From positions 1 through 36,677 of the IMG/VR virus record IMGVR_UViG_3300007734_000638: a stretch of 36,677 bases of DNA; one strand, 5' to 3'. The notes beneath the pieces are model-generated. The model was not told the DNA's origin. It did no database searches and saw only the letters and a list, made by a program, of their open reading frames with translations. The position numbers and the translations under genes are program-made. Source of the stretch: a virus. Shown piece after piece: positions 12,575 through 17,146 of the stretch (position 1 is the first letter of the stretch; each line of letters starts with the position of its first letter).

Positions 12575-13036
12575 TTAATCGTGGAGCTTCTTGAGCAACG
12601 CCGCCATGCTGGCTTTCAATTCCGCATCACTGAGACTTGCGGTCGGGGTCGAAGTCACATCCAGATCCAAACTCTGCCGCGCCTGTCCAAACAGGCGATC
12701 CATGATGTCCTTGAGGATGGGCGCACTGGGCGCAATGGCACTCAGCCGATATGCCTGTTCTCCCGCGTCCAGTTTTTCGTTCATGACATCCGCATCCACC
12801 ACCGTCTGCCACTTGCCCTGCGCGTCCCGCGCTTGCATGTGGGTGACGCCCTCAGCGGCGGTCAACTGCGCTTCCACCAGCCGGTCAAACCGTTTCGACA
12901 CGGCCTGTTTCCACGCGGCCAGCAATTCGGCCTTTTCGCGGAGCCGCATGGTCTGACGAATCTTCGTGCCGTTGACAATGTCGCCCGGTCGATGTTTATA
13001 CCGGGGGCCAAGTTTGGGTGTTCTGGACGTGGGCAT
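12575..13036 (-). CDS. Probable terminase small subunit
   Basis: 153 residues, next to terL with no gap, similar in length to P22 gp3 (162). Basic N-terminus (PKLGPRYKHRPGD), then a long helix (REKAELLAAWKQAVSKRFDRLVE), and a C-terminal segment ending ELKASMAALLKKL. The basic N-terminal DNA-binding part and helical oligomerisation core fit a small terminase, but I recognise no family signature. The call rests mainly on position and size. The start at 13036 has an AGGG-type ribosome site and is the first gene of the late operon. Confidence 0.6.
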   Translation of the reverse strand: MPTSRTPKLGPRYKHRPGDIVNGTKIRQTMRLREKAELLAAWKQAVSKRFDRLVEAQLTAAEGVTHMQARDAQGKWQTVVDADVMNEKLDAGEQAYRLSAIAPSAPILKDIMDRLFGQARQSLDLDVTSTPTASLSDAELKASMAALLKKLHD

Positions 13037-13068
13037 ATCGCTGCCCTTGGTTGTATCACAGTTGGGAC

Positions 13069-13096
13069 TTGACGGGTAGTCCCGTTGTGCTATCGT
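13069..13096 (+). promoter_or_regulatory. Sigma70-type promoter reading into the structured RNA
   Basis: TTGACG (13069-13074, 5 of 6 matches) and TATCGT (13091-13096, 4 of 6) are separated by 16 bases. Transcription would start near 13102-13104, exactly at the foot of the first hairpin of the RNA candidate. It faces away from the terminase gene that begins at 13036 on the other strand. Confidence 0.55.
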
Positions 13097-13101
13097 AAGG
13101 G

Positions 13102-13316
13102 TGCTCTGCCGGGAGGGTAAACCGCTGGCGGCAGGGCGACGTTGTTGAGGTAGCTACCAGCATCAGACAGCTACCACGGTGGGAACCCCCTTCAGTGGGG
13201 AACCGATTAGAGCCGCTGATGAGGTGTACGACGCACACCTAACGTCTGATCGCGTGGTGCCTCGATCGTGAGGAGCCACCCCACTCTCCGCTCAACGCCG
13301 AGTCCCTCGGTTTGTT
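13102..13316 (+). ncRNA. Candidate structured non-coding RNA, unknown class
   Basis: About 215 bases between a promoter-like pair and a terminator-like hairpin, with no convincing reading frame. Hairpins on the plus strand: 103-111/129-137 (GCTCTGCCG with CGGCAGGGC, 9 pairs including one G-U); 149-155/169-175 (GGTAGCT with AGCTACC); 187-190/197-200; 222-227/235-240 (AGGTGT with ACACCT); 254-257+260-263/270-273+276-279 (all +13000). The loop of the second hairpin contains ATCAGAC (13162-13168). This is complementary to GTCTGAT (13244-13250), and its CATCAG part (13161-13166) to CTGATG (13216-13221), giving two alternative pseudoknots. It lies next to the terminase genes. I do not recognise a known RNA family. 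Confidence 0.55.
13298..13316 (+). terminator. Rho-independent terminator of the RNA candidate
   Basis: CCGAG (13298-13302), a 3-base loop TCC, CTCGG (13306-13310), then TTTGTT. The stem is short but fully GC-closed and is followed directly by the T-rich run on the plus strand. Confidence 0.5.
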
Positions 13317-13324
13317 CGCGGATC

Positions 13325-13363
13325 ATGGGTAGGTTCGCCCCAGACTGGGAGAACTCTACCCAT
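13325..13363. other. Long imperfect hairpin
   Basis: ATGGGTAG (13325-13332) pairs with CTACCCAT (13356-13363), GTTC (13333-13336) with GAAC (13351-13354), and the tip CCCAG/CTGGG (13339-13343/13345-13349) closes it. About 16 pairs in 39 bases, with a bulged T and a small internal loop. It lies just past the terminator of the RNA candidate. It could be a second terminator, an RNase-processing site or a protein-binding dyad. Confidence 0.5.
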
Positions 13364-13467: not shown

Positions 13468-13619
13468 CTGGCCACCCTCTGTACATTACCTTCCTTGATC
13501 TTTCCTGATTTCTCCGATCCTCCATGCGTCCACCCGCCAGGCTCCAGTTTTTGGGCCGTTTCTGGCTCTCCGTGTTCTGTTTCGGCACACGCGTGTTCCA
13601 TTTCAAACCATTTCACTGC

Positions 13620-13715
13620 CCGGACAATTTGTCCGGACAACCCGGACACGTTGTCCGCCCTTAGCCTTTACGTGTCCGGACAACCTGTCCGCCTTGTCCG
13701 GACAATCTGTCCGCC
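13620..13715. repeat. Palindrome/iteron cluster A (TTGTCCGGACAA)
   Basis: The complete palindrome occurs at 13629-13640, 13694-13705 and, one base shorter, 13673-13683. Half sites (TGTCCG or CGGACA) lie at 13620-13627, 13643-13648, 13651-13657, 13686-13691 and 13708-13713. A 21-base unit, TGTCCGGACAA-y-CTGTCCGCC, is repeated in tandem, and TGTCCGCCCTTAGC occurs twice. The same motif forms cluster B at 16.9-17.1 kb, so a sequence-specific DNA-binding protein (repressor or replication initiator) is expected. Confidence 0.8.
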
Positions 13716-14004
13716 CTTAGCGTTGACAGTTTTACTGCGTATCCAGTTGTTTTCTGGATTTCGCGGGGTATGAAGAGGTGGGAGGGGGGAATCCCGAATC
13801 CAAAAGCGCTTCGGTTTCTACCGGGCCGGAATCCGATTAGGGCAAACGCCCAATCCTGAACTGGGTGAGCTGGCGCCGGGAACCACGGCGGCCGGGCCAG
13901 CTACCGGCCCGTACATGGGTTGGGTCACATGCCCCACATGGGCGTGGGAGGGGAGGGGAAGGTTGGAGACCCTGTCCATTCTAGGCAAGAGTTGAGTGTA
14001 GGAC
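13716..14004. other. Non-coding stretch with hairpins
   Basis: No convincing gene. A perfect -35-like TTGACA stands at 13723-13728, but no good -10 follows. Hairpins: GATTaGGGC/GCCCAATC (13835-13855) and CGGGCC/GGCCCG (13893-13911), the latter overlapping an alternative AGCTGGC/GCCAGCT pairing. A 29-codon ATG frame at about 13770 is too short and unsupported to call. The stretch ends in G-rich sequence near 13950. Confidence 0.4.
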
Positions 14005-14047
14005 TGTCACCTAAAGTGGACACTTCTTTTGTCACCTAAAGTGGACA
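14005..14047. repeat. Two identical 18-bp operator-like repeats
   Basis: TGTCACCTAAAGTGGACA occurs at 14005-14022 and again at 14030-14047, 25 bases apart start to start. Each copy has imperfect dyad symmetry (TGTC...GACA). The second copy covers the -35 element and spacer of the promoter at 14029-14057, as a repressor site would. Confidence 0.7.
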
Positions 14048-14057: not shown

Positions 14058-14139
14058 ACGCAACTTGTTGTACGATTGTGCTTGCTATACGCTTGGGCCT
14101 TGTGTTCTACTTGTCTGGTCGGCACGTTTCGCCGACGGG

Positions 14140-14168
14140 CCCGCGTCATCCCGGCGCGGGTCATTTTT
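14140..14168 (+). terminator. Leader terminator / attenuator-like hairpin
   Basis: CCCGCG (14140-14145) pairs with CGCGGG (14155-14160) across a 9-base loop and is followed by TCATTTTT. It lies between the promoter near 14.03 kb and the first gene at 14245, so it could attenuate the early operon. Confidence 0.5.
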
Positions 14169-14600: not shown

Positions 14601-15404
14601 TTGACCATAACAAGACTTGAACAGTTGACTCACGCAGAACGTTTGACCGAAGCGCTGGTGCTGGCCGTCCTGGTGGGAGCCGAGAACAAGGTGGCGCAAG
14701 GCATCAAAGCGTTTCACGGTTCCCCACATGACTTTGACCAGTTCAGCGTAAGCAAGATCGGGACGGGGGAAGGGGCGCAAGCCTACGGGCATGGGCTGTA
14801 TTTCGCGGAAGCGCCAGAGACAGCGGGATTCTATAAAGATTTCCTGGCGAAGAAAGCGGATACGCCAGAGTATTGGGAATCTGTCAAGGATCGCGTGCCT
14901 GAGTTCTTAGGGGTGGGCGAACAGGACGAGCTTTTCAAACTCAAGCAGAAACTTGCCAAGAACGCCACGAATGGCCCACCGTTGACGGCTCAAGAAACGG
15001 GGAGATTCGATGCATTGAATGGTCGATACCGCGAATACTACGAAGCCGTAGACGCGCTAAAGCCCAAAGGCCACATGTATGAAGTCAACATCGACGCCGA
15101 CCCCGAGGACTTTCTTGATTGGGATGCCCCCCTAAGCCAGCAGAGCGAGAAGGTGCGGCAGGCGTTCACAAACTTGCACGGGCCTGAAGATTTAGCGAAT
15201 TACGCGGATGCCCCTGGTCGGAAGTGGGCAGGCCCAGCCGCCAGTGAAAGACTTCGCAAGGCGGGCATCCCCGGCATCAAGTATCTTGACGGGGCCTCCC
15301 GCTCAGCCGGGCAAGGCTCCCACAACTACGTCGTGTTTGACGATACCAGAATCAGTATTGTAAGGAAATTCGGCACCGCCGCACTGCTGGAGGCGCGATC
15401 GTGA
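14601..15404 (+). CDS. Stand-alone ADP-ribosyltransferase (ART-PolyVal-like)
   Basis: 267 residues from a TTG at 14601, with AAAGGA about 8 bases upstream. The core begins at residue 36, KAFHGSPHDFDQF (His39 in the NAD-binding strand). It continues with GTGEGAQAYGHGLYFAE (Tyr62 and Tyr67 region) and ends with AGIPGIKYLDGASR and NYVVFDD, the signature of the ART domain found in phage 'polyvalent' proteins, which transfers ADP-ribose from NAD to a protein or nucleic-acid target. In other phages the domain is normally part of a giant fused protein; here it is almost the whole gene, with only about 35 leading residues. It overlaps the next gene by 4 bases. The target is unknown; host proteins are the usual guess, as for T4 Alt/ModA. 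Confidence 0.75.
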   Translation: MTITRLEQLTHAERLTEALVLAVLVGAENKVAQGIKAFHGSPHDFDQFSVSKIGTGEGAQAYGHGLYFAEAPETAGFYKDFLAKKADTPEYWESVKDRVPEFLGVGEQDELFKLKQKLAKNATNGPPLTAQETGRFDALNGRYREYYEAVDALKPKGHMYEVNIDADPEDFLDWDAPLSQQSEKVRQAFTNLHGPEDLANYADAPGRKWAGPAASERLRKAGIPGIKYLDGASRSAGQGSHNYVVFDDTRISIVRKFGTAALLEARS

Positions 15405-16938: not shown

Positions 16939-17146
16939 TTGTCCGGATCAGATCCCACCGTGTCCGGACAACCCTGTCCGGTGGTTAACCTACTGAGAAC
17001 AAAAAACTTATGCGTTTACGCTTTTCTGTTGTCCGGACGTTGTCCGCCACCATGTAAGAATTACGTGTCCGGGCATTTTCAGGCCCAAAATCGCAGATCC
17101 TGACGGTGTGTCCGGGTTTGTCCGGCCTTTGTCCGCCCCTTGTCCG
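16939..17146. repeat. Palindrome/iteron cluster B (TGTCCGG), possible origin
   Basis: Copies of TTGTCCGG or part of it at 16939-16947, 16961-16971 (full TGTCCGGACAA), 16975-16981, 17029-17038, 17040-17046, 17066-17072, 17109-17115, 17118-17125, 17129-17135 and 17140-17146. An AT-rich segment (about 16984-17028, including a run of six A) sits inside the cluster. Multiple same-direction repeats beside an AT-rich stretch and next to a regulator and primase genes are typical of an iteron-controlled origin, but operator function alone would explain the repeats too. Confidence 0.7.

Follow-up and report, generated by a model that had tools for sequence, protein, structure and literature searches.

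Comparison with related phages indicates that the window, an IMG/VR viral contig of 36,677 bases, encodes a genuine structured RNA next to its terminase genes, with a fold and a pseudoknot that are supported by compensatory changes. We favour, with moderate confidence, the reading of this locus as a stand-alone, accessory, structured and trans-acting noncoding RNA of about 190-270 nt with its own sigma-70-type promoter. What speaks for a stand-alone noncoding RNA is the position of the promoter, the non-coding status of the locus and the conserved fold seen by comparison. A preliminary description of this DNA had proposed a structured RNA that is read from the plus strand, starts at a promoter of its own and lies beside the terminase genes; covariation, a G-U bias and the position of the -10 box all support that proposal. 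To our knowledge, few small structured RNAs besides tRNAs and antisense RNAs are known in P22-like podoviruses. The RNA has a well-defined start and a pseudoknot supported by covariation, and its invariant loops suggest that it has a specific partner.

Genomic context and distribution of the RNA

The minus strand of the window encodes a P22-like podovirus structural module, with portal (PF16510), coat (PF11651), a Terminase_6 large subunit and scaffold. The 153-aa gene upstream of terL (12575-13036) gave no family hit and is presumed to be terS, given its location and its relatives. The RNA locus sits between terS and a rightward, accessory-like gene region and is divergent from terS, so that the leftward terminase operon and the rightward RNA promoter stand back to back. 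The first gene downstream is 600-900 bases away. The genes on the downstream side point rightward in the lineages inspected and are unrelated between lineages; in at least L096, L005 and L017, a TTGACA-type promoter of their own precedes them. The RNA itself has stops in nearly every frame and no frame open across all homologues; this bears out the earlier statement that the block contains no protein gene, and a hidden protein gene was rejected.

A TerL search of viral contigs, combined with motif scans, retrieved homologues of the RNA in about a dozen related phage contigs, all at the same position beside terS (L052, L096/L002, L003, L241, L004, L005, L009, L014, L015 and L017). The L003 copy is cut by the contig end, L006-L008 are identical to L005, and L010 is identical to L009. 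The carriers are mostly seawater-derived phages. Over the modelled RNA, members of the window's own subclade share 88-91% identity with the window and the other lineages 58-62%, the terL DNA identity in the same comparison being 81-92%. Scanning viral contigs with looser motifs, as well as a genome scan, brought up nothing beyond the same clade and chance matches, and BLAST searches of phage and plasmid collections gave no convincing match to the RNA. Rfam 15 produced no match in the window at the gathering cut-off; at E up to 5-10, searches of the window, L009 and L017 yielded chance-type matches far below it. No tRNA was found in the window either; the preliminary description had not recognized the RNA as a tRNA, a ribozyme or a known riboswitch. 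A literature search, covering mostly papers outside subscription, retrieved no description of the RNA. From these comparisons it appears to be a new, previously uncatalogued family that is confined to one genus-level phage clade.

Three near-full-length relatives lack the RNA; their TerL, TerS and coat proteins are, respectively, 75-81%, 53-68% and 93-95% identical to those of the window. Because relatives sharing TerS, TerL and coat lack it, the RNA is an optional element of a locus that is collinear in other respects, and packaging in this family does not need it. Phages with and without the RNA can thus be compared for its role.

Two of the carriers deserve separate mention. G001, the contig of L002/L096, contains two slightly different copies at its ends (606-755 and 37120-37269), which are probably strain variants, both assembled across one and the same site of a permuted genome. 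L241, a close homologue, comes from a contig (CALAPX010000122.1) of a Spartobacteria MAG; it could hint at a verrucomicrobial host or represent a misbinned contig.

Promoter, fold and covariation

The promoter pair TTGACG-16-TATCGT, earlier described as starting transcription at the foot of a hairpin, is present in the window and scored 9 of 12 consensus matches plus a TG before the -10 box in the promoter scan (Table 1). Each of the 11 copies examined has a TANNNT -10 box 6 bases before P1 (5 in L015), with different surrounding bases; most copies also have a TG before the -10 box or a TTGCNG -35 box at 17 bases. When the 110 bases upstream were searched automatically for the best whole promoter, this site did not come out in every copy, and the argument for the start site is the fixed position of the -10 box, not the promoter score. 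Since that box stands at a fixed distance from P1, transcription very probably starts at the foot of P1.

Table 1. Features of the RNA locus, in positions of the window
Feature	Position	Strand	Evidence and remarks
Sigma-70-type promoter	13069..13096	+	Promoter scan; -35 TTGACG, 16-nt spacer, extended -10 TG-C-TATCGT
P1 hairpin	13103..13137	+	9 bp, 17-nt loop GGAGGGUNAACCGCUGG; 7/9 pairs change on both sides; loop nearly invariant
P1 strands	13103-13111/13129-13137	+	9 pairs
P2 hairpin	13149..13175	+	6 bp; 4/6 pairs change on both sides; 100% paired
Pseudoknot 5' strand CATCAG	13161..13166	+	Pairs with 13216-13221; 5/6 pairs change on both sides
Conserved joining segment GGUGGGANCC	13178..13187	+	Alignment
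P3 hairpin	13187..13200	+	Fold; short in the window; in the L009/L017 lineages 40-43 nt long and of a different build
P7 5' strand CGAUUAGA	13204..13211	+	8 bp in the window's subclade; one pair covaries (U-A to C-G)
Pseudoknot 3' strand CUGAUG	13216..13221	+	Pairs with 13161-13166
P8 hairpin	13223..13239	+	78% of pairs kept; 4/5 change on both sides; register shift by one between lineages
P7 3' strand UCUGAUCG	13245..13252	+	Contains GTCTGAT, the rival loop partner proposed earlier
P9 hairpin	13254..13279	+	Per-sequence folds; same-position stems of different sequence (GUGGU/GCCAC, GAUGGG/CCCAUC, GAUAGG/CCUAUC)
P10 hairpin	13287..13322	+	Contains the proposed terminator; T-run weak or absent in relatives
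P11 hairpin	13325..13363	+	GUUC/GAAC in the window versus GGCU/AGCC in relatives

On its own, the RNA sequence from the window folds no better than expected by chance (z -0.94, with 38 of 200 shuffles doing equally well). Compensatory changes in the stems, a check suggested in the preliminary description, were found among the relatives. Over 10 distinct sequences, the 28 nested pairs were 92.1% standard, with 16 changed on both sides and a covariation score of 0.51; about three lineages make up the alignment, so that each changed pair represents one to a few events. Shuffled controls reached 77.5% pairing and a score of 0.22, a comparison that overstates significance, and the safer control, with slid partners, gave 33-46% and a score of at most 0.14. 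The 9-pair hairpin and the GGTAGCT hairpin described earlier correspond to P1 and P2, and both covary.

The loop of P2 combines an invariant ACCAG with the 5' strand of the pseudoknot. The pseudoknot takes a different form in each of three lineages (CATCAG/CTGATG, GCATC/GATGC and CGCA/TGCG) and was counted together with P2 and P7 on distinct rows. Its helix alignments were set by hand from motifs and the A4 rows are spliced stem segments, both of which lean towards the proposed structure. P3 was removed from the alignment of the P2/P3 region, since MAFFT misplaced P2/P3 when it was included, and the stems of the 3' part were taken from per-sequence folds, RNAalifold being spoiled there by misalignment. 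Of the 319 cells counted over the P1, P2, P7 and pseudoknot helices, 31 are G-U and A-C never occurs, which identifies the plus strand as the transcript. Conservation is mostly in the loops, where 44 of 87 unpaired columns are invariant versus 20 of 56 paired ones.

The P2 loop had also been proposed to pair with two competing partners, and both matches are present in the window, one of 6 bp to 13216-13221 and one of 7 bp to 13244-13250. The former is the covarying pseudoknot. The latter, ATCAGAC/GTCTGAT, is restricted to the window's subclade and amounts to 2-3 bp in L004-L015 and L017; the GTCTGAT strand pairs instead with CGATTAGA (13204-13211) to form helix P7. This helix has 8 bp in the window, seven out of eight in the L009 group (one A.A mismatch) and 8 bp plus a bulge in L017. 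The coincidental rival pairing may be explained by the resemblance of the loop to the 5' strand of P7. An RNA switch built on mutually exclusive pairings is not supported, because the rival pairing is lost in other lineages and the GTCTGAT strand is engaged in P7. A two-state switch was rejected, as the two pairings are not both conserved among homologues.

The hairpin and T-run previously proposed to end the block (13298-13316) could not be established as a terminator. Its tail is only TTTGTT and was not called by the terminator scan, the U-tract of the window lies inside the longer hairpin P10, and the P10 of L017 has no T-run. Conserved hairpins continue beyond this site, to about 13363, and the stems of P9, P10 and P11 are kept with different sequences among relatives. 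Should the transcript include P11, it would not terminate at P10.

Proposed role and alternative explanations

We propose that the RNA is transcribed rightward, away from the terminase operon, and folds into P1, P2 with its loop in a 4-6 bp pseudoknot to the P7-P8 joining strand, a variable P3, and P9-P11. The invariant loops GGAGGGUNAACCGCUGG, ACCAG, GGUGGGANCC, UAGAGCC and GUCU would keep a tertiary core together and serve to bind a partner. Comparative evidence shows the fold, the transcribed strand and the start site, and that the RNA does not depend on any particular downstream gene. That the RNA would be a discrete molecule working in trans is suggested by the exclusion of packaging, replication and gene-specific leader roles together with the invariance of the loops. 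Its partner would most likely be a host protein or RNA, since no phage protein gene shares its pattern of presence and absence: none of the window genes tested follows the RNA across relatives. The RNA is kept where the replication module has been swapped. Its role would be accessory (regulation, host takeover or anti-defence) rather than in packaging. Elsewhere in the phage, the best complement to the L1 loop has three mismatches, which is near chance, and antisense targeting within the phage by this loop was rejected. More speculatively, and with a rather low probability, the RNA might represent a new functional class unrelated to known families, namely a pseudoknotted small RNA that is catalytic or directed at host machinery (an anti-defence or a polymerase/ribosome-directed RNA, for example), with its group-I-like order of strands and its five invariant loop motifs.

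Alternatively, the RNA could be a cis-acting leader or antitermination element like put of HK022, which modifies RNA polymerase for read-through into the rightward accessory genes. Both are promoter-proximal structured phage RNAs; here the structure begins exactly at the transcription start, no strong conserved terminator directly follows it, and the downstream genes, rightward and variable, leave room for a cis effect on that side. A terminator-like site (14138-14162) precedes the first gene of the window; among relatives, however, sites of this kind close to the first gene are not conserved. Whereas put acts in cis on the early operon, the genes here lie 600-900 bases on, with promoters of their own in at least three relatives, and the pseudoknotted fold of 190 nt or more far exceeds what put needs. 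We consider such a leader unlikely.

A ribozyme or ligand-binding RNA, with the invariant loops as active or binding site, is a more doubtful candidate. Its loops are conserved while the stems change freely, and the order of strands (pseudoknot-5', P7-5', pseudoknot-3', P8, P7-3', P9) is that of P3, P7, P3', P8, P7' and P9 in the group I intron core. Unlike in group I, P2 encloses the P3-like strand; P4-P5 and exons are lacking, the RNA starts at its own promoter and interrupts no gene, and no group I, hammerhead or other Rfam model matched at E up to 5-10. A group I intron was rejected on the enclosing P2, the promoter and the absence of an Rfam match. The hammerhead (CUGANGA...GAAA) was also rejected: a CUGAUGA occurs only in the window's subclade, where UAA comes after it and not GAA, the corresponding sequence in relatives is GAUGCGG or UGCGGG, and no model matched. 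ROOL and GOLLD RNAs (PMC12286853) are likewise phage-encoded, elaborate and pseudoknotted, but they are much larger and often near tRNA islands, and their Rfam models fail to match the RNA described here.

A replication-linked RNA, such as a primer or origin transcript, is improbable. A palindrome cluster and a conserved element near 13738-13830 do come after the RNA. However, the RNA is kept in G007 and G002 (the latter record may be incomplete), where the primase and exonuclease genes of the window had no homologue that could be found, and is missing in G009 and G010, which have such homologues; the conserved element is present without the RNA in L020. A replication RNA was rejected on this independence from the replication module.

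Least credible of all is a packaging or prohead RNA like the phi29 pRNA, used by the neighbouring terminase, an option raised in the preliminary description: the RNA always adjoins terS in the clade and, like pRNA, is phage-encoded and structured with a loop pairing, but that pairing is within one molecule, the setting is P22-type (TerS/TerL, coat and portal), no Rfam family matches, phage pRNA included, and the RNA is missing from near-full-length relatives whose terminase, portal and coat are homologous, and is thus not present wherever the homologous motor is. P22-type headful packaging needs no RNA, and the TerS of an RNA-positive relative (61% identity) is no closer to that of the window than the TerS of an RNA-negative one (68%).

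Other elements around the locus

An inverted repeat, GGGACT...AGTCCC (13064-13083), is centred on the -35 box of the RNA promoter, between this promoter and the TGTGATAC motif, which is conserved upstream of terS. L052 carries a paired change (AGGACT...AGTCCT). The repeat might be an operator for both divergent units.

The palindrome TTGTCCGGACAA and its near copies form two clusters (13616-13705 and 16939-17040), with 7 matches at up to 2 mismatches versus 1.5 expected. These palindromes also occur downstream of the RNA in L052 and L096 and were not seen in the L009 group. The noncoding element around 13738-13830 (GTATCCA...TTTCGCGGGGTATGA...GGGGAATCCC...AAAGCGATTCGG) lies near terS in both RNA-positive and RNA-negative relatives, and in L020, one of the three near-full-length relatives without the RNA, this element is found directly upstream of terS, with only about 200 bases between them. 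It is possibly a late promoter, an operator or an origin.

The rightward region, whose gene content is entirely different between relatives, includes in the window a gene (14601-15404) with a weak ART-PolyVal match, below the curated cut-off. Two tandem copies of TGTCACCTAAAGTGGACA (14007-14046), a possible operator, immediately precede the point where the rightward genes begin.
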